From: Akebia trifoliata
Lineage: Eukaryota; Streptophyta; Magnoliopsida; Ranunculales; Lardizabalaceae
Direction of reading: 5' to 3'
DNA: 64,000 nt
Assembly: GCA_017979445.1 (NCBI GenBank)
Contig: CM030717.1
Coordinates: forward strand, 24,725,288-24,789,287
Shown here: positions 13,810 to 61,091 of the stretch, in pieces
Numbering within the stretch: position 1 is the stretch's first letter
Layout of the letters: each line of letters starts with the position of its first letter
Translations under genes and position numbers: made by a program
Notes under the pieces: generated by a model
Databases searched by the model: none
The model's input: only the letters and a program-made list of their open reading frames with translations
Told to the model about the DNA's origin: nothing

Positions 13810-13884
13810 AAAAAAACATGCATCAAAAGCTTATATGATTTCATTCTTGGAAATGGGGATTTTGATGATTAAGAAAGTCGTACA

Positions 13885-14345
13885 TGTTAGATATTTTTTC
13901 TGTCCCACATGACACTTTTAGTCTTTAATAAAAGGAAGTTACTGATCTAATCTCTAGAGTAGTGGTTACTAACATTTAGAGAAGTAGTTTTCCTCTATCT
14001 ATTAACTTCTAACTTTGATGGGAAGTGGAGGGGCAGTTACAAAAACTACTCAGCAGTTACTAAAGGAAATGGGTCCTCTCTCTACCCATTTTAAGAGGCA
14101 TCATACTATTTTCCATCATCAGTGAGTAAAATGCATTTTTTTCTTTTAAGAGAAAGGGTCAAGAGAGAGAAACTCATTGCCTGAAGAAATCCATATTTTC
14201 AGATCAACAATTAACAAAGAAATTGCTATGGATTCAGGTATGTTGTTTATCTTTATAAAATCATATATGTTATTTAAATTTGTATGTGAAAATCATGATA
14301 GTCAAGATCATAGAATATATTGATTGATGAATTTAAAATTTTACA
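13885..14345 (+). repeat. 5' LTR of intact copia
   Basis: 461 bp, TGTTAG...TTTACA. It contains ATGGATTCAG followed by GTATGT at 14228-14243, a good context for a start codon next to a splice donor. Purine-rich GAGAAAGGGTCAAGAGAGAG lies upstream and probably falls in the transcribed leader. Confidence 0.95.
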
Positions 14346-15409
14346 TGTGGTATCAGAGCCACAGGTTAAGACTTTCTTGATTTTCCATTATGATCTATTT
14401 GTTGCAATCAATTATTTGTGGAAGATTTCATATATATATATGATATGATTTAGTTTTGATTTTAATTTTTTCTTTTCCGCTGCGATTATTAAAGTTTTCC
14501 ACAAAATAAAATCTCATTTATTTTATACCCAACGTGTTTTCTATGGATTCTCATATATAAAGCATGATGTTGTTGGTTGCTTTAATTAATGGAGAAAATT
14601 ACATATTTTAGTACATTTTCTACTTTCCATTTTCAGCATGATGTTACATATCAATTTTATTTTATTTTTATTTTTATTTAATTGATAATATTGCTCATGA
14701 TTTGTTCTACAGTATAGAACACAACACACAAAATGTGTATCATTTATAAAAATCTGAATCATGTCCGAAATTTATGAGTAACATCTCTTGTATTGATTTG
14801 TTATAATAATAATAATAATTATTATTATTATTATTTTTTATAGTTTATTTGAACATGAAATTGTCATATGTATGAAACTGTTTAAATGATGATTTGATGT
14901 GATTAATGATAAATTATTTTACAAAGTGATTATTTCATCTTGAAATCCTATTTTATGAAATAGTTTGGTAATCACCAAAGTGATCCAACTAGAAAGTCAT
15001 AGGTTTCAAGTTGTAGTTTTGATCTTAATACTCATATCCCAAGTATTAAGAAAAATGACTTTGCAAATTTTGAATAGATATTTATATGTATTATTAATCA
15101 TGAGAATATTTTGGCTTGGCCCAAAGGTGCACCACTTTTCTTGTGATTAATATACTAAGGTAAAATAATTAATGTATATCCTTAATTGAGAAGTGGAATC
15201 GGATACCCAAAGGTAACGGACCTATCAGATTATGGATACATTATTAATTATTTATTTTATTTTAATAGGTGAAAGGGAATTACCATAATAGTTAAAAGTT
15301 TAATTTTTTGTATGTTGTAATTTTCATCCACAGATGTGTTACAACAATACTATTTATTGTTTATTATTTAACTCAAAGCATTAATGTGTGAGCATATATT
15401 TACTTGCAG
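14228..15409 (+). other. Predicted start exon (14228-14237) and 5' intron (14238-15409) of copia Gag-Pol
   Basis: ATG GAT TCA G at 14228-14237 inside the 5' LTR is followed by the donor GTATGT. A pyrimidine/A-rich stretch ending TACTTGCAG at 15401-15409 is a good acceptor. Joining them gives Met-Asp-Ser-Val-Ser-Ile-Pro in frame with the long Gag-Pol frame. Without splicing that frame opens after the TAA at 15382 and has no ATG until 15628, which would remove the conserved Gag N-terminus. The intron would remove the primer binding site. Sequence-based inference; no transcript was seen. Confidence 0.7.
14348..14360 (+). other. Primer binding site of copia (tRNA-Met)
   Basis: TGGTATCAGAGCC two bases after the LTR end. 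It lies inside the predicted 5' intron. Confidence 0.9.
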
Positions 15410-18400
15410 TTTCAATTCCTGTTTCGTTTCATTCACATGCTTCATCTGTTCCGATCCTTAATGGAGCAAATTTCTCAGATTGGTCTGAACAAGTCCAGTT
15501 TCACCTAGGTGTACTGGATCTTGATTTAGCACTTCGGACTGAGAAACCGCCTGCTATTACTGAAGTTAGTAGTGCGGAAGAAAAGACTCTAAGTCATTCT
15601 TGGGAAAGATCGAACAGATTGAGCATTATGTTTATGCGAATGAGTATAGCGAACAACATTAAATCTACACTTCCTGTACCTGACACTGCTAAGGAATTTT
15701 TTAAGACTGTGGAAGAACGTTTTCGTTCAGCTGATAAGTCTCTTGCTGGGACATTAATGGCTGAACTCACCACCATGAAGTTTGATGGTACTCGTGGGAT
15801 GCATGAGCACATCCTTGAGATGTCAAATCTAGCTGCTAAACTGAAAGCTCTTGGGATGAATGTGGATGAGTCTTTTCTTGTTCAATTTATTTTGAACTCC
15901 TTACCTCTTCAATATGGGCCATTTCAAATTCATTACAACACTATTAAAGACAAGTGGAATGTAAATGAATTGGCTAATATGCTTGTTCAAGAAGAGACAA
16001 GGCTTAAGCAACAAGGACATCATTCAGTTCACCTTATAGGCAAAGGAGCTAGTAAGAAGTGGAAGAAACCTAAGAAGGGCAAAATGGTAGAACCACCTAA
16101 ATTCAATGGGCCTCCTCAAGGTATAGAGGCTCATCAGAGGGGACAAAACAGTATCAAGTGCCGTTTCTGTAAGAAGTTTGGGCATGTACAGAGAGATTGC
16201 CACAAACGTAGAGCATGGTTTGAAAAGAAAGGTAAGCCTTTAGCTTACGTTTGTTTCGAATCAAACCTTACTGAAGTTCCTTCTAATACTTGGTGGATTG
16301 ACTCAGGTTCCACTGTTCATGTTTCTAATTCGATGCAGGGCTTCCTTACAATCCAGACTTTAAACCAAAATGAAAGTTCCATAGTCATGGGAAATGGAGT
16401 CAAAGTTCCAGTGGTTGCTACCGGAACATTTCGTTTATTTTTAGACACTGATTGTTATCTAGATTTGTTTCAGACACTTTATGTTCCTTCTATTTCTCGT
16501 AATTTGGTTTCCATGTCTAAACTTGACCTTGAAGGTTATTCTTTTTCATTTCGTAATAGAAGATTCAGTTTGTTTAAAAATTCTTCTTTCGTTGGTTCTG
16601 GTAGTTTATGTGATGGTTTATATAAACTAAATCTTAATAGTCGTTTTGCTGAAAGCCTTTTAACCCTACATCATAATGTTGGAACTAAACGTAACCTGAT
16701 CAATGAAAGTTCTTCTCACTTGTGGCACAGACGTTTGGGTCATATATCCAAAGAAAGAATTGAGAGATTAGTAAAAGATGGGATTTTGCCTAACCTAGAT
16801 TTTACTGACTTCAATGTATGTGTGGATTGTATTAAGGGAAAACAAACCAAACACATAAAGAAAGGTGCTACAAGAAGTAGAGAACTTCTTGAAATTGTCC
16901 ATACAGACATTTGTGGGCCTTTTGACTCGCCATCTTTTGGTAAAGAAAAATATTTTATCACTTTTATTGATGATTTTTCTCGTTATTGTTATATCTATTT
17001 ATTGCATGACAAATCTCAAGCAGTGAATGCTCTAGAGGTGTACATTGTTGAGGTTGAAAGGCAATTAGATAAAAAGGTGAAAATTATCAGATCAGATAGA
17101 GGTGGTGAGTATTATGGAAGATATGATGGATTGGGTCAACACCCTGGCCCATTTGCTAAACTCCTAGAAAAGCATGGTATATGTGCACAATACACTATGC
17201 CAGGTACGCCTCAGCAGAATGGAGTGGCTGAAAGGCGTAATCGTACATTGATGGATATGGTTAGGAGTATGTTAAGTAATTCATCTTTACCCATTTCATT
17301 ATGGATGGAAGCCCTTAAGACCGCTGTTTATTTATTAAATAGGGTTCCTACTAAAGCAGTTCCAAAGACTCCTTTTGAACTGTGGACAGGAAGGAAGCCA
17401 AGTTTAAGGCACCTACACGTTTGGGGTTGCCCAGCGGAGGCTAGGATATATAATCCACATGAAAAGAAATTGGATTTCAAAACCATTAGTGGTTACTTTA
17501 TTGGCTATCCAATGAAATCCAAAGGGTATAGATTTTATTGTCCTAATCATAGTACGAAGATTGTTGAAACGGGTAATGCCAGATTCATTGAGAATGGTGA
17601 AATCAGTGGGAGTAATCAATTACAAAAAACAAATATTCAAGAAGTTAGGGTGCAAGTCCCACAACCCATAACTTCTAAAGAAATTGTTGTTCCTATAATT
17701 GCAGAATCATCTGACAATGTTGAACAACAAATTATTGATCAATCACTCCCCAATGAGATTATCACTAATGAACCAATTATGGAAGAACCACAAGAATCAA
17801 CATTAAGAAGGTCTCAAAGAGAACGAAGACCTGCTATTTCTGATGATTATGTGGTGTATTTACAAGAATCTGATTATGATATTGGGACCAGTAAAGACCC
17901 GATTTCATTTTCACAAGCCATTGGTTGTAATGATTCTAATAAATGGATTGATGCCATGAATGATGAATTGAAATCAATGGATCAAAACAAAGTTTGGGAA
18001 CTTGTCGAATTGCCTGAAGGATATAAAGCAGTTGGTTGTAAATGGATCTTTAAGACCAAACGCGACTCAAAAGGCAATATCGAACGACATAAAGCCAGAC
18101 TTGTGGCCAAAGGTTTCACTCAGAAAGGAGGTATTGATTATAAGGAAACCTTCTCTCCTGTATCAAAGAAGGATTCACTTAGAATCATTATGGCTTTAGT
18201 TGCTCATTTTGATTTAGAGTTACACCAAATGGATGTGAAAACTGCTTTTCTGAATGGGAGTTTAGAAGAAAAGGTTTATATGGATCAACCTGAAGGTTTC
18301 TCCATAAAGGGAAAAGAACACATGATTTGTAAATTAAATAAGTCAATATATGGACTTAAACAAGCTTCTAGACAGTGGTATCTTAAATTCAATGATATTA

Positions 18401-19467
18401 TTACTTCCTTCGGATTTAAGGAAAACATCGTTGATCGGTGTATATACTTGAAGGTTAGTGGGAGCAAGTTTATATTTTTGATCTTATATGTTGATGATAT
18501 ATTGCTTGCCAGTAGTGATCTTGGTTTATTGTACACAACTAAAAAATTTCTCTCTGAGAATTTTGAAATGAAAGATATGGGTGAGGCAACTTACGTGATT
18601 GGAATAGAAATATTCCGTGATCGCTCACGTGGTTTGTTGGGGTTGTCTCAAAACCGATATATTGAAACAATCTTAGAGAGATTTGGTATGGAGAACTGTT
18701 CAGCTAGTGTTGCCCCAATTCAGAAAGGGGATAAATTTAGTCTCATGCAATGTCCACAGAATGAATGGGAACGTAAACAGATGGAAAGAATTCCTTATGC
18801 TTCTGCTGTAGGAAGTTTGATGTATGCACAAACTTGCACCAGGCCAGACATCAGTTTTGCAGTTGGTATGTTGGGCAGATACCAAAGTAATCCTGGAATG
18901 GATCATTGGAGAGCTGCAAAGAAAGTAATGAGGTACTTAAGGGGAACAAAAGATTACATGCTTACTTTTAAGAAGTCTGATAATTTGGAGGTGATTGGCT
19001 ACACTGATTCAGACTTTGCTGGATGTGTTGATAGTAGAAAATCAACTTTTGGTTATGTATATTTGTTGGCTGGAGCAGCAATTTCATGGAAAAGTGCTAA
19101 GCAGACTACTATTGCTGCATCCACAATGGAAGCTGAATTTGTGGCATGCTTTGAGGCCACAGTTCATAGTTTATGGCTGCGAAATTTTATCTCAGGACTT
19201 GCTATTGTCGACACTATTGAGAAGCCGCTGAGAATTTATTGTGATAATTCTGCAGCTGTATTTTTCTCCAAGAACGACAAATACTCTAATGGTGCTAAAC
19301 ACATGGAGTTAAAGTATTTTGCCGTTAAGGAGGAAGTTCAGAAACAACGGGTGTCTATTGAACATATTAAAACAGAGCTCATGGTTGCAGATCCACTAAC
19401 TAAAGGGTTACCACCAAAGACATTTAAAGAACATGTTAAAAGAATGGGTCTTGATTGTAACCTTTGA
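15388..19467 (+). CDS. Ty1/copia Gag-Pol polyprotein, unbroken
   Basis: Residue numbers count from 15388; real coding from this exon probably starts at 15410 after splicing. The Gag (UBN2-type) domain spans about 10-210. A zinc knuckle [14 protein letters not shown] is at 258-271. The protease WWIDSGS has Asp at 305. GAG-pre-integrase LWHRRLGH is near 445. Integrase has Asp507 (HTDICGP), Asp570 (SDRGGEY) and Glu615 (NGVAERRNR), the complete DDE triad. RT starts near 869 (VWELVELP) and has YVDD at 1034-1037. RNase H YTDSDFAG is near 1205. The C-terminus is DPLTKGLPP followed by [11 protein letters not shown]. Length (about 1,355) and order are those of complete plant copia polyproteins; there is no stop or frameshift. 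It supplies particle protein, processing, integration and reverse transcription for its own copying. Confidence 0.95.
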
Positions 19468-19863
19468 TGCCTGTTATGTTTTGGATTGCAATGTTTATGT
19501 TATTAGACATTTTGAGATCTCATTATTCATGTTTCTGATTTTTCCTGTTTTCCATTTTGTACGTACATCTATGAGAATGGATAAAAGATAACAGGAAGTC
19601 TTTTACAAAGACAATTTTGTCGGACCAATTATGGATACTTCTCATTTATGAACTATGGTTGATTGAATTGCTAGTTTTATAGTACATGGAAGGGACTATG
19701 TCGTCTTATTGATGTACAACCGCCATGACTTATACTAGTGATTTATTTAACTATAGTATTTATGATGACCAATTTAAGTTAGAGATTGATTAGTGTTTTA
19801 TGCGCATAATGTTTACTTCATTGAGGCTAAAATGAAATTAGTCATATGGGCCAAGTGGGAGAA
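19468..19863 (+). other. Copia 3' untranslated region and polypurine tract
   Basis: About 400 bp with no coding lies between the Gag-Pol stop and the 3' LTR. The last bases before the LTR, AAGTGGGAGAA, are the expected plus-strand primer. Confidence 0.8.
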
Positions 19864-20324
19864 TGTTAGATATTTTTTCTGTCCCACATGACACTTTTAG
19901 TCTTTAATAAAAGGAAGTTACTGATCTAATCTCTAGAGTAGTGGTTACTAACATTTAGAGAAGTAGTTTTCCTCTATCTATTAACTTCTAACTTTGATGG
20001 GAAGTGGAGGGGCAGTTACAAAAACTACTCAGCAGTTACTAAAGGAAATGGGTCCTCTCTCTACCCATTTTAAGAGGCATCATACTATTTTCCATCATCA
20101 GTGAGTAAAATGCATTTTTTTCTTTTAAGAGAAAGGGTCAAGAGAGAGAAACTCATTGCCTGAAGAAATCCATATTTTCAGATCAACAATTAACAAAGAA
20201 ATTGCTATGGATTCAGGTATGTTGTTTATCTTTATAAAATCATATATGTTATTTAAATTTGTATGTGAAAATCATGATAGTCAAGATCATAGAATATATT
20301 GATTGATGAATTTAAAATTTTACA
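19864..20324 (+). repeat. 3' LTR of intact copia
   Basis: 461 bp, identical by reading to the 5' LTR, including the internal ATG and GTATGT donor. Confidence 0.95.
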
Positions 20325-20329
20325 GTACA

Positions 20330-26900: not shown

Positions 26901-29900
26901 ACACAATTGAAGGAATTTAAATAACATAACCATCTGCCATACATGATCACTGCCCAAAAAAAACTGAAATAGACATGTGTCCTCAAGCATCATCACCTAC
27001 CTGACATATATACATAAACAAGAGTAGTGACATGTATCGTGTCCATATATACAAAGAGATATCCAAAAGACTCTTAACCTAACTCTAGTCTCAAGACTTT
27101 CATTAGTAATACTCAAACTCCTCTCCAAGAAACTTTGAAAAAATGTCTTGGGATTATGAGGATTAAGCGCTCTGGGCAAGTGGTTGAGGAGGTTTGGCAC
27201 AAAAAAGGACTTTTAGAGAAAAGTCATTAAAGCAAAATATGGTGAAGACCCAACGGGTTGGAATTGTCGCCAGACCAGGTTGCTTCATGGGTGTGGCATT
27301 TGGAGAGGGGTAGTAATCTGATCTCAGATTTCAATAAGCACATCAGGTTCAAAGTGGGGAATGGTAACCGAATCCATTTTTGGGAGGATTGTTGGTGTAG
27401 GAAGACTCCTTTGAAAGATGCCTTCCTAACTTTGTTTACCCTTTCAAACAAAATGATCCTTATTTCTTCCTTCCTAGTTTCTAATGGTGTAGTTAGTTAT
27501 TGGGACCTAAGTTTTAAGGCGAAGACTTCAATGATTGGGAAATTCAAGAGGTTGCTTCCTTAAAGAGCTTAATTTCTGATTATGCAAGTGACACCCAGGT
27601 AGAAGACTCTCCAGGCTTTGGAAAGGGACCTGTGACTATAACTTCTCTATGAGTTCCTTTTATCAGTCACTTGAAGGAGGATGGAAGGCAAATTTCCCGA
27701 TAAAAGCTATTTGGTATCATTTGAACCCATAAAAAATCTCTCTTTGTTTGGACTGCGTCATTGGGAAAACTCCCGACTTTGGATAATCTTAGGTTTAGTG
27801 GTATGTTCACCGCAAACTTTTGTTTATTATGTATGCAAGAAAATTGGGAAATCATTTGACACTTGCTCATTCATTGTTTATTATCCATCACTCGCAAGGA
27901 GGAGGGAAGGCAAATTTCTAGATAAAAGCTATTTGGCATCACTTGAACCCACATAAAATCTCTCTTTTTTGGAGGGCTTCATCGGGTAAACTTCCTTGTG
28001 CCTGGTTCCTCTTCAATCAAGTATAGTGTTTTATTTTATTCCCCTTACAGACAGTAAGTCAATGGCCAGGGCTGGATGCCCATTAAGACGGTGTTTCAAA
28101 ACTTGCAATTATGATTTATACTTCGCTCATGAAGTAGTGACCGATTGACCAATTCATAACGCCAGTCCCAACAAGTAAGTCATTAAAAGTCATTTAGAAC
28201 CTGGGCACACAACCCTTGTTGGTGATTGGTGAATAGCACACTGACTTGGCAACCTCCCTTGACTTCTTGTTATGCTTAGCCAATTATGGAAATGCGCACC
28301 GCGTAGTAAAAGTACACTTATCATAATCTTAGGTTTAGGGGTATGTTCATTGCACTCTTTTGTTTATTATGCAAGGCTAGTGAGGAATCATCTAACCACT
28401 TGCTCATTCATTGTACTTTTGCTACCTTGGTGAGGTCTCACTTCCTTTTATATCCCACATGTCTTGGTGCACCCCCTAGTCATTCTTTCAGTTTCTTTTT
28501 AGTTGGAGCGCCACAAAGTTGTCTGGTAGAGAGAAGTTTCTTTGGGACTTAGTACCTTATGCCATTTGTTGGGGACTATGGAAAGAAAGAAGTTGAAGGA
28601 TTTTCAACAGGGAAAGAGCTACCTATTCAAGATGTATTTTTTCTATTGTGGATTTTATTCATTATTGGTGAAAGAAAAATGTAGATTGTAGGGGCTTTCT
28701 TCTGAGCATTTTTTGTTTAGGTGGGATCTTGCTTGTGACAAGGGCAATTGTAGCCTTTATAATCCTTTCTTTTAAGGCTATTGGAAAATAGTAGATAGTA
28801 GTAGTCTAATTTTGTTATTTCTATGTTTCTGTTTCTGTGTAAGGACATTTATGTCCATTCACCTATGTAAGGGCATTTTTGTCCATTCACCTTTTTTATT
28901 ATTATATATATCTGCCAAGCTCTTAATTAGAGATTTGACAATTTTACAATTCTTCTTGGTATCAGAGCCATTAGAATTCCTCTATTGGTTCTCCTTCGAT
29001 CTCCTTCGTCTTTTTTGATCGCATGCTTCCATAACTCTCTGCGCTGTGTTTCATGCCCTATTTTGTTCATCGTTAACCTATTGGCTGGACTGTTAGGTCC
29101 CTTTTTTTATCTGCTACTGTAGAGTCTGCATCAGTTTCTCAAGCGACTCTTGGCACCATCGATTTGCAACATCTCCATACTCAGATTTCAGCCATTGTAC
29201 GGGATCAGATCCAGGCTCACACTTCCTCATCCTCGACTGTTACGTCGGTTATTATACCTCAAGGTACATCCTCTGCACTTCATGCTACTCAGTCTGGCTC
29301 TGCTCCACTGACATGAGTAATTGATTCTGGCGCCTCTGATCACATGACTGATGAGTCTAGTTATTTTACATCCTCTATTTTCCCTACTATTCATAGGGAG
29401 GTTCGTCTTGCTGATGGGTCCCTCACACCTATCCACAGTAAGGGTACTATCTCATTATCGCCTAATTTTTCTCTTGACTCCGTGCTTCATGTCCCTCACC
29501 TATCTCTTAATCTTTTATCTGTGAGTAGTATTACTAAATCTTTAAATTATTCTATAACATTTTTTCCTACTCACTGTATTTTTCAGGACCTGACTTCGAG
29601 GAGGATTTTTGACAACGGGTATGAGAAGGATGGGTTGTACATATTTGGATCTCAATCGATTGCGGCTCCAGCTTCTGTGCTTTCATCATCTGGGAGCCAC
29701 ACTTTTTCATCTGTCTTTAGATTTATGGCATGTTCGCTTAGGACATGCTAATTTTCAGCACTTGTATTCTTTATTTCCTGCTTTAAAAACTTCTTGTAGT
29801 AGGCACAAATTTCAGTGTTCTGTGTGTGAACTCTCTAAACACACTCGTACCTCGTATATTCCTCGTATGCATCAGTTTAATGCAATATTTGATTTAGTTC

Positions 29901-32900
29901 ATTCTGATGTTTGGGGGCCTTCCCCTGTTACTGTATTTAATGGTCACAGATACTATGTTACATTTATAGATGATTATTCTCGTTGCACTTGGGTTTATTT
30001 GATGCGTTCTCGTTCTGAGGTGCTTCCTATTTTTGTTAATTTTCTTAAGATGATTCAAACTCAGTACAACATCACTGTTAAATCTCTCAAGTCAGATAAT
30101 GGGGGGGAATATATTTCGGATGGGATTTCGTTCCCATCTTCATGAGAATGGTATGCTCCATCAGTTGACATGTCCATACACTCCTGAGCAGAATGGGGTG
30201 GCAGAACGTAAGAATCGTCATCTCATGAATACAGTCAGGTGTCTTCTTCGAGGCATGCATGTTCCTAAGGCATATTGGAATATGGCAGTTCTAACTGCGA
30301 CTTTTCTTATTAACCGCGTTCCGAGTCGCACCTTAGGAGGACAGGTACCTCTTCATGTTCTTCAACCCGACCGCGCTCTCTTCCCCATTACTCCTAGAGT
30401 CTTTGGGCGCACATGTTTTGTTCAAAATAGGACTCCCACTCGTACTAAATTAGATGATAAAGCCATTCGGTGCGTCTTCTTGGGTTATTCTACTATGTCC
30501 AAGGGGTGTCGGTGTTATGATCCGATTTCTCACCGTGTCATACATTCTCTTGATGTTACATTCTTTGAAAATATTCTATATTTTCGTACTACTTCTACTT
30601 TGCAGGAACCTTTTTCTTCGCAGGACCCATCACCTATAGTGCTACCCTCTCCGATCTTTCCTTCACCTCCGTCAGAGTTTCAGGTCTACACTCGTCGCCC
30701 TCGTCCATCTCCACCTTTGCCAACCTCCTCCTTGGACTCAGGTATATCATCTCCTACTCTTACACCTATACCTGCTCCTATTCCTTTTTTTTCTGACTCT
30801 CACTTACCTATTGCTCTTCGCAAAGGTAAACGAGGGTGTGTTACTGATCATCCCATTGCCCAATTTGTCTCCTATCAGGGTCTTTCTCCTTCTTATCAGC
30901 CTACCTTGCTCTTATTGATTCTATTCGAGTTCCTCGGTCTGTATCAGAGGCTCTGCAAGATCCTCAGTGGACTAGAGCTATGACTGTTGAGATGGATGCT
31001 TTGCAGAAAAATAATACCTGGGAACTTGTTACCCTTCCATCTGGGGAGCGAACCGTTGGTTGTAAATGGGTCTTTACGGTGAAATACCTCGCAGATGGCA
31101 CTGTTGATCGGTATAAGGCGCGACTAGTTGCTAAAGGGTTTACGCAGACTCCAGGAAAGGATTTTGGTGCCACATTTGCTCCTGTTGCCAAACTTTCCAC
31201 TGTTCGTCTTCTTATCTCTTTAGTTGCTTGTCACTCATGGCCTCTTCATCAACTCGATGTGAAGAACGCTTTCTTGAACGGTGATTTGACTGAAGTTATA
31301 TATATGGACCCCCCTCCTGGGTTTCATCTTCAGGGGGAATATTGTGGGAAGGTATGCCGCCTTCTCAAATCTCTGTATGGTCTGAAACAATCCCCGCGAG
31401 CTTGGTTTCAACGTTTTTCAGAAGTTATTTTGTCTATGGAGTTTACCAGATGCCACTCAGATCATACTTGTTTTGTTCATCGTGGATTAGATGGTCGATA
31501 TGCCATTGTTCTAGTATATGTAGATAATATTATCTTGACAGGAGATAATGCCCAGTGGATTGACAGGGTGAAGATGATATTGGGTCGTGTTTTTAAGGTT
31601 AAGGACTTGGGTCCTCTCAAGTACTTCTTGGGGATAGAAGTAGCTCGCTCTCGACGAGGTATTTCACTATCTCAGCACAAATACACATTAACCTTCTTCA
31701 GGATACTGGTATGCTTGGTTGTCATCCTGCCTCTTCTCCTATGGATCAGAATCATCGACTTCATATCGAATCTGGTGATCTATTATCTGATTCGGCTTCT
31801 TATCAGAGACTTGTAGGTCGTCTGATTTATTTGACTAATACTAGACCGGATTTGACCTTTGCGGTTAGTGTAGTCAGTCAGTTTATGCATGCTCCGCGTA
31901 CATCTCACCTTGAGGTCGTTCATCGTATTCTTCGCTACTTAAAGTCACGTCCTAGCCTTGGGCTTTTCTACTCATCCACTGCTCAACCACATTTGTCATG
32001 TTTCACTGATGCTGATTATGCGGGCTCTCTTACAGATAGGAGATCTACCTCTGATTTCTGTACATTCCATGGAGGTAACCTTATCTCATGGAAAAGTAAG
32101 AAATAAAGTGTGGTCTCTCGTTCTTCTGCTGAAGCCTAGTATCGTGCTATGGCTCTTGGGACATGTGAGCTTCTCTGGCTTCGATCTTTACTAACAAAAT
32201 TGGGATTTCCTCTTTCTGGTTCTTCCTCGTTGTTCTGCGACAACAAGTCTGCTATCATGCTTGCTTCTGACTCAGTTCTTCATGAACAAACTAAGCATAT
32301 AGAGGTTGATGTTCACTTTCTCAGGGAGAAAGTTCGATCTGGTGCCCTTCAGACAGTCTTTGTATCTTCTTCAGATCAACTTGCCGACATGTTTACAAAG
32401 TCTATTGGTCCTTCTATCTCTAACTCTCATCTTATCAAGGACATTTATGTCCATTCACCTATGTAAGGGCATTTTTGTCCATTCACCTTTTTTATTATTA
32501 TATATATCTGCCAAGCTCTTAATTAGAGACTTGACAATTCTACAATTCTTCTAAGGCCACCTAGGCCTCCTTTAATAAACTGACTTACCAAAAAAAAATC
32601 TTACAGTCATAGTGAATGGCAAGAGATTTGCAATGTCAGGATCATGTTCAGAACATAATCACCAAATTCAGTGACTTATTGAAAATGCCGCGATTAAATC
32701 ATGACTTTTTCTATTACCGATTGAATCATATGATTTGATAGCAGCTTTTTTAATAAGTAGCATTTTTTATGAACTCTACAATTAAATCGCAAACATCATG
32801 ATTAAATAAAATTTTTAAAAAATGGGGGCATTTCAATAAAATTTATTCCCATATCCAGTCCTAGATGATACCTAGTAAAAACTGTGAAGATGATGGTGAC

Positions 32901-59619: not shown

Positions 59620-61091
59620 CTACTGAGGTAGATAAACAATTGATCATCGAACTCGCAGTTGTAGCAATGGAAGAGTTTATAAGAATGACCCAACTAGGGA
59701 AACCCTTATGGATGCATAGCCTTGATCATGCTTATGAGATTCTAAGTGAAGATGAGTACGGGTGAACATTCCCGAGGGGAGTTGGGCCAAAACCATTTGG
59801 ATTGAAATCAGAAGCTTTTCGAGAAACTGCCGTTGTTATCATGAATCACATTAACCTTGTTGAGATCCTTATGGATGTGAATCAGTGGTCCACCGTGTTT
59901 TCTAACATTATTTCAAAAGCAACAACTCTTGAGGTTGTATCAACAGGCTAGCAGAAAACTATAATGGAGCTCTTCAAGTGATGACAGTAGAATTTCAAGT
60001 CCCTTCACCTCTTGTTCCGACTCGAGAGAGTTTCTTTGTAAGGTATTGTAAACAACATGCTGAGGGAATTTGGGTGGTGGTCGATGTTTCCTTGGATCAT
60101 TTGCGTCCTAGCCCGATATCGAGATGTCGAAGAAAGCCATCAGGTTGTTTAAATCCAAGAAATGCCAAATGGTTACTCCTAGGTTATATGGGTCGAACAC
60201 GTAGAAGTGGATGATAAAGTAGTTCATAGTATATATAAAACACTGGCTAACTCCAGCCTTGGGTTTGGCGCAAAGCGTTGGGTTGCTACCCTAGATCGAC
60301 AATGTGAACGCCTTGCAAGTGTTATGGCTAGTAACATACCCGCTGGAGATGTTGGTGTGATCACAAGTCAAGAAGGGCGAAAGAGTATGTTGAAGTTAGC
60401 TGAGAGAATGGTGATGAGTTTTTGTTCTGGTGTAAGCGCTTCTACTGCTCACACATGGACAACATTATCGGGAAGTGGCGCTGAAGATGTAAGGGCCATG
60501 ATTGGAAAAAGCATAGATGATCCCGGCAGGCCTCCTGGTATTGTGCTAAGTGCAGCTACTTCTTTCTTGCTTCCAGTCCCACCAAAGAGAGTTTTCAATT
60601 TCCTTCGCAATGAGAACTTTAGAAGTGAGTGGGACATTCTTTCTAATGGCGGTGTTGTTCAAGAAATGTCACATATTGCTAATGGCAGAGATCCTGGTAA
60701 CTGTGTTTCTCTACTGCAAGTTAATACTCCAAATTCCAGTCAGAGCAACATGTTGATATTACAAGAGAGTAGCACCGATGCAACGGGTTCTTTTGTAATC
60801 TATGCTCCTGTTGATATTGTTGCAATGAACGTGGTTCTAAATGGGGGAGACCCAGACTGTGTAGCACTCATTCCCCCTGGTTTTGCTATACTCCCCGATG
60901 GGCTAACAGTAAATAGAGGTAGAATTACTAAAGTTGGGTCTGGTAGATCCCTATGGACTGTCGCATTCCAGATCTTGGTCAACTGTGCTCCAACTGCAAA
61001 ACTTTCTCTTGGATTTGTGGCTACTGCTAACAACCTCAGTGCTTGCACCATTGAAAGGATCAAAGGTATCAAGGGACAATGCATGAATTGA
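59620..61091 (+). pseudogene. Captured HD-ZIP IV (PDF2/ATML1-type) START-to-C-terminus segment
   Basis: Plus-strand reading from about 59622 gives [100 protein letters not shown], then after a 1-bp shift [15 protein letters not shown], and from 60207 an open 294-codon frame with [40 protein letters not shown], and [19 protein letters not shown] to a stop at 61091. This is the lipid-binding START domain and conserved downstream region of class IV homeodomain-leucine zipper epidermal regulators. Homeodomain and zipper are absent. About 490 codons run with no intron although host genes of this family are split, so it came from spliced RNA (inference). Five stops and one frameshift lie before 60207. 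Confidence 0.88.

Follow-up and report, generated by a model that had tools for sequence, protein, structure and literature searches.

In a 64,000-nucleotide stretch of the Akebia trifoliata genome (contig CM030717.1; hereinafter the window, taken as a whole), a young Ty1/copia element appears to carry the start codon of its Gag protein in its LTR, separated from the rest of the reading frame by a predicted intron that contains the primer-binding site (PBS). Very probably, two spliceosomal introns enable this single element to yield three kinds of RNA, namely a genome, a Gag-Pol mRNA and a Gag mRNA. In the mechanism that we propose, the first intron would start three codons and one base past the Gag AUG in the LTR and end in codon 4 of Gag. 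RNA retaining this intron would keep the PBS along with the full leader and would constitute the genome; in it, the AUG of exon 1 would lead to a dead end, many more AUGs would precede Gag, and the ribosomes on the dead-end frame would stop short of a primer at the PBS. Removal of the first intron would join AUG-GAU-UCA-G to UU-UCA, generating a Gag-Pol messenger that could not be primed, while removal of both introns would end the frame 10 codons after Gag, generating a Gag-only mRNA of the kind known from BARE1 and EVADE. A split between messenger and genome would follow from this layout, from which we infer splicing in vivo, its partial extent, the exclusive use of the RNA classes and which of them is packaged. 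The long-standing question of how a retroelement divides its RNA between protein synthesis and reverse transcription is called a major one in work on the barley BARE elements (PMC3735527); in the present element, the layout itself would provide the answer, and any plant transcribing such an element would be informative.

The element and its predicted exons

The element looks complete, occupies positions 13885-20324 of the window on the plus strand (as do all of its parts described below), and is flanked by the target-site duplication GTACA on the left (13880..13884) and the right (20325..20329). Its 5′ LTR (13885..14345), of 461 bp and with TG...CA ends, is identical to the 3′ LTR (19864..20324) at 461 of 461 bp in a pairwise comparison. 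The PBS, TGGTATCAGAGCC, is found at 14348..14360, and a polypurine tract, AAGTGGGAGAA, recognized by eye, lies at 19853..19863 just 5′ of the 3′ LTR. We take this PBS to be of the initiator tRNA-Met type; an identical one is reported for a grapevine copia element (PMC2576258). The open reading frame for Gag-Pol runs from 15385 to 19467, and exon 2 would contribute its part from 15410..19467 as a single frame, amounting with Met-Asp-Ser to about 1355 residues by arithmetic. Pfam models fall on it as PF14223 in the first of three pieces, PF22936, PF13976 and PF00665, in this order, in the second, and PF25597 and PF07727 in the third; no model for the protease catalytic core or for RNase H was reported on this frame in the domain search. 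The copia assignment is based on a copia-type Gag and an integrase placed ahead of a copia-type reverse transcriptase in one frame, together with the TG..CA LTRs, PBS, polypurine tract and 5-bp target-site duplication. DNA-level relatives were absent from the viral_contigs, genome_contigs, plasmids and phages collections. We designate the family of this element F1, the letters F1, F1b-F1d and F2-F5 being our own naming within one genome. A pattern scan finds TATA-like sequence patterns in the F1 LTR.

The first methionine of the 15385-19467 frame is residue 82, in agreement with the sequence-only reading, which had noted that the frame has no ATG for 80 codons. The conserved N-terminus of Gag begins about 70 residues before this methionine and is preceded by nine open codons (15385-15411). 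The putative coding part of exon 1, ATGGATTCAG (14228..14237), lies inside the 5′ LTR and encodes Met-Asp-Ser from the start ATG (14228-14230) on, its last base opening codon 4. It abuts the splice donor GTATGT (14238..14243, with the GT at 14238), which opens the predicted intron 1 (14238..15409), 1172 nt in length with 42% T, enclosing the PBS together with the 3′ portion of U5 and closing with the acceptor TTGCAG (15404..15409). These observations bear out the sequence-only reading, which had placed ATGGATTCAG|GTATGT in the 5′ LTR and an acceptor ending at 15409, and had stated that their joining brings Met-Asp-Ser in frame with the Gag N-terminus: both sites are exactly where it put them, the predicted junction reads M-D-S-V, and the predicted exon 1/exon 2 product starts M-D-S-V-S-I-P-V-S in frame with Gag. 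Its statement that the intron contains the PBS likewise agrees with the coordinates (14348-14360 within 14238-15409), and loss of the PBS would follow from them if splicing occurs. The 3′ LTR carries the same ATG and donor (20207-20222). On unspliced RNA, the exon-1 AUG would be read for 31 codons (14228..14323) up to a stop at 14321-14323, 25 nt ahead of the PBS. Altogether, 37 ATGs are present within 14131-15384; a further ATG relative to that of exon 1 lies upstream of it, at 14131, and its membership in the 5′ UTR depends on the transcription start.

At the zinc-knuckle end of Gag, we predict a second intron of 107 nt (16232..16338), bounded as AAAG|GTAAGC ... TTCGATGCAG|GG, with the codons at its donor reading GAA AAG AAA G|GTAAGC. 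Beyond it, a tail of (G) plus 10 residues and a stop (16339..16373) is read in a frame different from that of pol, so that the predicted Gag-only product after removal of both introns comes by arithmetic to 288 residues. As judged from sequence, this would be a Gag-end intron that truncates the frame after Gag, as in elements of the shGAG type. Donor- and acceptor-like sites at similar spacing were found in five of six relatives from the same genome (two of F2, two of F3 and one of F4); the F5 locus is the one without them. The tail frame was considered as independent proof of selection and set aside, as it overlaps the conserved pol frame.

Recurrence of the predicted start exon

A Gag protein search of the window's own genome returned at least 131 matches, of which 22 copies (L009-L030, L013 being the window element) make up the F1 set. 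All four sites (ATG, donor GT, PBS and acceptor AG) are kept in 15 of the 22, and exon 1 is unchanged in 12 of these 15. Losses of sites are seen in L023 (ATG to TTG), L024 (acceptor AA) and L025 (donor CT); exon 1 was not found in L022, the LTR of L021 lies outside the fetched stretch, and L026 and L028 gave no usable alignment. All six copies with a stop-free Gag match keep every site, though these six are near-identical and hence not independent; none of them lacks donor or acceptor, a lack that the sequence-only reading had named as speaking against it if found in family copies with intact Gag-Pol. Base changes were counted in 17 of the 22 copies (leaving out L013, L021, L022, L026 and L028), giving 1/102 in the donor, 6/170 in exon 1, 2/221 in the PBS and 8/340 in the acceptor, as compared to 52/815 in the 5′ UTR, 81/1588 in the rest of U5, 667/17254 in the intron and 27/527 in exon 2. 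As a possible sign of selection these counts point in the expected direction, but the copies compared are related to one another and we place no weight on them. One F1 copy, L010, has an extra ATG with donor (at position 60) and a one-mismatch PBS (at 180), 257 nt upstream of an intact set (at 317), and thus appears to carry or adjoin a partial duplicate of its own LTR end.

Beyond F1, 60 loci were chosen by hand from the rest of the at least 131 matches, most of them matching from near the Gag start. Leaders were obtained for 40 chosen loci, 30 of which have a PBS within one mismatch, and in 19 of these 30 the pattern ATG-N6-G|GT[A/G] occurs 107-143 nt before the PBS. By family, the 10-nt phase-1 exon is present in 10/10 loci of F2, 4/5 of F3, 1/1 of F4 and 4/6 of F1d. 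The Gag proteins of these exon-bearing families are 40-55% identical to that of F1. Among the exon 1 variants, such as ATGGATTCAG, ATGGCACAAG, ATGGCGGGAG and ATGGATCCAG, the sequence differs while length and phase stay constant, and the predicted joined starts include MAGASQTANFSD, MDPALNNPANI, MDSVSSSTTN and MAQV. A script located an acceptor in 17 of the 19 loci, with the joined product entering Gag (e.g., MAGASQTANFSDIRC, MDPALNNPANITANI, MDSVSSSTTNIIASI and MAQVFGSLHSHASTI). When the 400 nt before the PBS are compared between F1 and F3, the one significant alignment spans 22 nt and corresponds to the exon plus donor (E 1e-5); between F3 and F4, which are closer relatives, 76 nt align. In F2, codon 2 is GCG, GCC or GCT, all encoding alanine, in 9 of 10 loci (GTT in L050), and this synonymous variation is the behaviour expected of a coding exon. 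The F2 copy L048 has no ATG between a TATAAAA box and the exon-1 ATG. The dead end of the exon-1 AUG stops before the PBS in 11 of 13 loci and runs past it in L054 and L064.

When the 400 nt before the PBS are shuffled with dinucleotides preserved, ATG-N6-G|GTR arises by chance in 18-60 of 1000 shuffles for each of 18 loci. Its actual position is confined: in F1 it precedes the PBS by 120 nt, and in 15 of the 16 PBS-bearing loci fetched from F2, F3 and F4 by 107-133 nt. At two other PBSs of the same kind in the window (1823 and 28957), no AGGTR was found 95-145 nt upstream, suggesting that the geometry of donor and PBS is not a general property of such sites.

In other plants, three overlapping protein searches gave the best 120 of 689, 120 of 236 and 120 of 158 Gag relatives, or 301 different proteins, which were sorted by script on the residues preceding the conserved Gag start; the 'TNT 1-94' of database names is treated as a generic label. 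Among the 301 listed, 33 have a short M[D/E/N/A] start, a loose class with some false members, and 61 appear to start by reading through the tail of the intron (e.g., VSIYLIAV and MTQSINVRHVLIAV), with the rest comprising 63 other starts, 28 long extensions and 116 that start inside the domain or gave no alignment. Applying by eye a strict start of exactly four residues, M-x-x-[V/L/F], retains 14 of the 301 listed, from nine genera and two 'lgn' contigs: Vitis (P0001), Malus (P0009), Zingiber (P0011), Phoenix (P0046), Mangifera (P0082), Cajanus (P0093 and P0227), Carex (P0115), Ricinus (P0229, P0236 and P0237) and Glycine (P0279), along with P0013 and P0033 on the short 'lgn' contigs that have no gene name. 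Valine at position 4 would be expected of a phase-1 junction, as G|TN across it gives V. The 'lgn' contigs are presumably assemblies of public reads, RNA included; that of P0033 has 1179 bases, 303 beyond the 876 of P0033 itself. Because families with a contiguous start exist, the contigs of P0013 and P0033 are no proof of intron 1 splicing.

The second intron leaves a comparable trace. The zinc-knuckle end AWFEKKG, with close variants, is seen in 92 listed relatives. Past it, 65 of these continue and 27 terminate within 60 residues, 11 of the 27 (picked by eye) with a tail like IPYDPNFKSK. In P0009, P0013, P0033 and P0035, an exon-1-type start (MDQV, MDQV, MDKV and MANKV, respectively) is combined with the intron-2 tail in proteins of 288-291 residues, as compared to the 288 predicted for the window element. 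P0042 has the intron-2 tail with an N-terminus resembling read-through of intron 1, as would a partly spliced RNA. Taken together, these comparisons support the interpretation of the layout offered by the sequence-only reading, since families with distinct LTRs in the same genome share the length and phase of the exon, its donor and its position before the PBS, and since other plants have gene models that open with residues of the predicted type.

Exceptions and alternative readings of the predicted leader intron

The 10-nt exon is missing from 11 of the 30 PBS-bearing loci: the five loci of F5, five with stops in Gag (L059 of F3, L041 and L056 of F1d, L044 of F1b and L047 of F1c) and L078. 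F5 (L072-L076), whose Gag is 36-37% identical to that of F1, has no ATG in exon 1. Instead, its predicted leader intron runs from the donor CCAG|GTATTT to the acceptor TAATGCAG|CTATGGATGG, and the Gag ATG stands two bases into exon 2. The intron spans 1.8-1.9 kb, and the donor AGGT precedes the PBS by 103 nt, each as measured in two copies. As L072 and L073 have no ATG between TATA and donor, splicing would make the Gag AUG the first. Accommodating F5, the wider common feature is a putative PBS-containing leader intron whose removal would make the Gag AUG the first one, the start codon being placed within the LTR in most, not all, of the families seen. L078 combines a 391-nt leader and a one-mismatch PBS with an AGGTR 100 nt before the PBS, a TTTGCAG just upstream and a stop-free Gag match beginning at an in-frame methionine; we regard it as an exception and do not class it as a decayed copy. 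In L062, an F4 locus, a second in-frame ATGGATTCAG occupies the 3′ end of intron 1, so that its unspliced RNA could make Gag (M-D-S-V) as well. An origin of L062 from a spliced cDNA returned to the genome was rejected, as inspection by eye shows that upstream of the junction only the 10-nt ATGGATTCAG matches and not the 5′ UTR.

The alternative that fares best, which we hold to be possible but clearly the lesser prospect, accepts splicing of the leader as real and assigns to it only the clearing of upstream AUGs and help in export or translation, with the loss of the PBS a by-product and the spliced RNA having no exclusive role. F5 fits this well, having retained the leader intron even though its Gag start is in exon 2, and so do the numerous ATGs between donor and exon 2: 18-32 in the 12 loci of other families that were counted and 21-22 in two copies of F5. 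However, in six family groups (F1, F1d, F2, F3, F4 and F5) the donor AGGT precedes the PBS by 99-135 nt, although a donor behind the PBS would still clear most of the AUGs. This constancy is compatible with a by-product too, but it is the argument for which we favour a switch between messenger and genome over an intron that merely clears AUGs.

Two further alternatives dispense with the first intron. One holds that Gag starts at a non-AUG codon or by internal entry in 15385-15411, with the ATG and donor in the LTR coincidental; the frame is indeed open over that stretch, which the 61 listed relatives noted above seem to read through, but in F2, F3, F4 and F1d the exon recurs with its length of 10 nt, its phase and its spacing to the PBS, and gene models of other plants begin as splicing predicts, which makes this a very improbable account. 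Equally hard to credit is the use of intron 2 (of the shGAG type) only, intron 1 being an artefact of gene predictors that must find some ATG: most triticale Gag RNAs did have a single intron (PMC7765848), but exon 1 is conserved in the DNA of the window's genome independently of annotation and the joined start occurs on the short unnamed contigs of P0013 and P0033.

Returning to the messenger/genome switch, we incline, with less assurance than for the three RNAs of the window element, to the view that it extends to a large group of angiosperm copia elements. Across this group, one splicing decision would act as an irreversible switch making each RNA a messenger or a genome, never both; the donor would lie about 100-135 nt ahead of the PBS; and every LTR, solo ones included, would be a portable promoter, start codon and donor able to trap host exons. 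If the layout is common, the annotated Gag N-termini of many copia elements would need correction. Each LTR could also equip host genes with a promoter, a start codon and a donor. In this regard, the ATG and donor stand behind the promoter region in LTR copies (20207-20222 in the window element; 32 matches in the genome), forming a possible trap for host exons 3′ of an element.

Comparison with known retroelements and other features of the window

Ty1 of yeast has its Gag start codon in the LTR and its PBS inside the translated frame, and foamy viruses place a splice donor ahead of the PBS. Foamy virus RNAs spliced from such a donor would be without the primer site, as would the predicted spliced RNAs here. 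Ty1 shares the start in the LTR with the Akebia element, but it has no intron and keeps the PBS within what is translated. The GAG AUG of Ty1 is in the 5′ RNA (PMC5454406). In foamy viruses, it is Pol and not Gag that needs the splice, and both family and host are different (PMC7828637).

That spliced copia RNAs are known in plants, as the sequence-only reading had stated, is confirmed by reports on BARE1, EVADE, triticale and sunflower. The barley copia element BARE1 has a 104-nt intron at the end of gag that produces a Gag-only mRNA, and intron 2 of the window element (107 nt) looks like the same device; BARE also maintains separate RNA pools for translation and replication from two promoters, with TATA1 giving uncapped and TATA2 capped RNA; an intron holding the PBS or providing the start of Gag does not figure in the available portions of that report (PMC3735527). 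EVADE (ATCOPIA93) of Arabidopsis makes a spliced short Gag mRNA, its unspliced full-length RNA being mostly nuclear, but the intron lies between GAG and the rest and is coupled to premature polyadenylation, with no splice-supplied start in the sections available (PMC8892269). Long reads from triticale revealed one intron in 13 of 15 Gag RNAs, the accessible text giving no place for it relative to the PBS (PMC7765848). The sunflower copia elements Tyran and Varan have short isoforms with two introns, detected by direct RNA sequencing; these differ in encoding a truncated Gag, and the accessible text does not position the introns relative to the PBS or Gag start (PMC7730604). Outside copia, Ogre, a gypsy-type LTR element of plants, depends for its coding frame on an intron that is partially spliced, as the window element is predicted to do (PMC6317226, PMC12786077). 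According to a 2025 review, plant LTR elements are intronless with exceptions that include Ogre and EVADE; it cites BARE1 for splicing at the end of Gag (PMC12786077). In the literature surveyed, mostly superficially and including excerpts of PMC6712407, PMC11718148, PMC5014426 and PMC5668417, we found no description of a PBS-containing intron that also brings in the Gag start from the LTR.

Elsewhere in the window, 28957-31813 probably represents the remains of another copia element, with a PBS at 28957 and a match to a reverse transcriptase model at 30848-31813. The segment 51051-58165 has a frame with weak plant mobile domain and DUF7745 matches, followed by frames matching RVT_1, RNase H-like and integrase models. 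On the minus strand, a frame at 38576-39283 matches part of the model of TRM, the N2,N2-dimethylguanosine tRNA methyltransferase. Finally, a frame at 60183-61088 has a PDF2_C domain and part of a START domain, an arrangement that we take to match the C-terminal portion of HD-ZIP IV genes.
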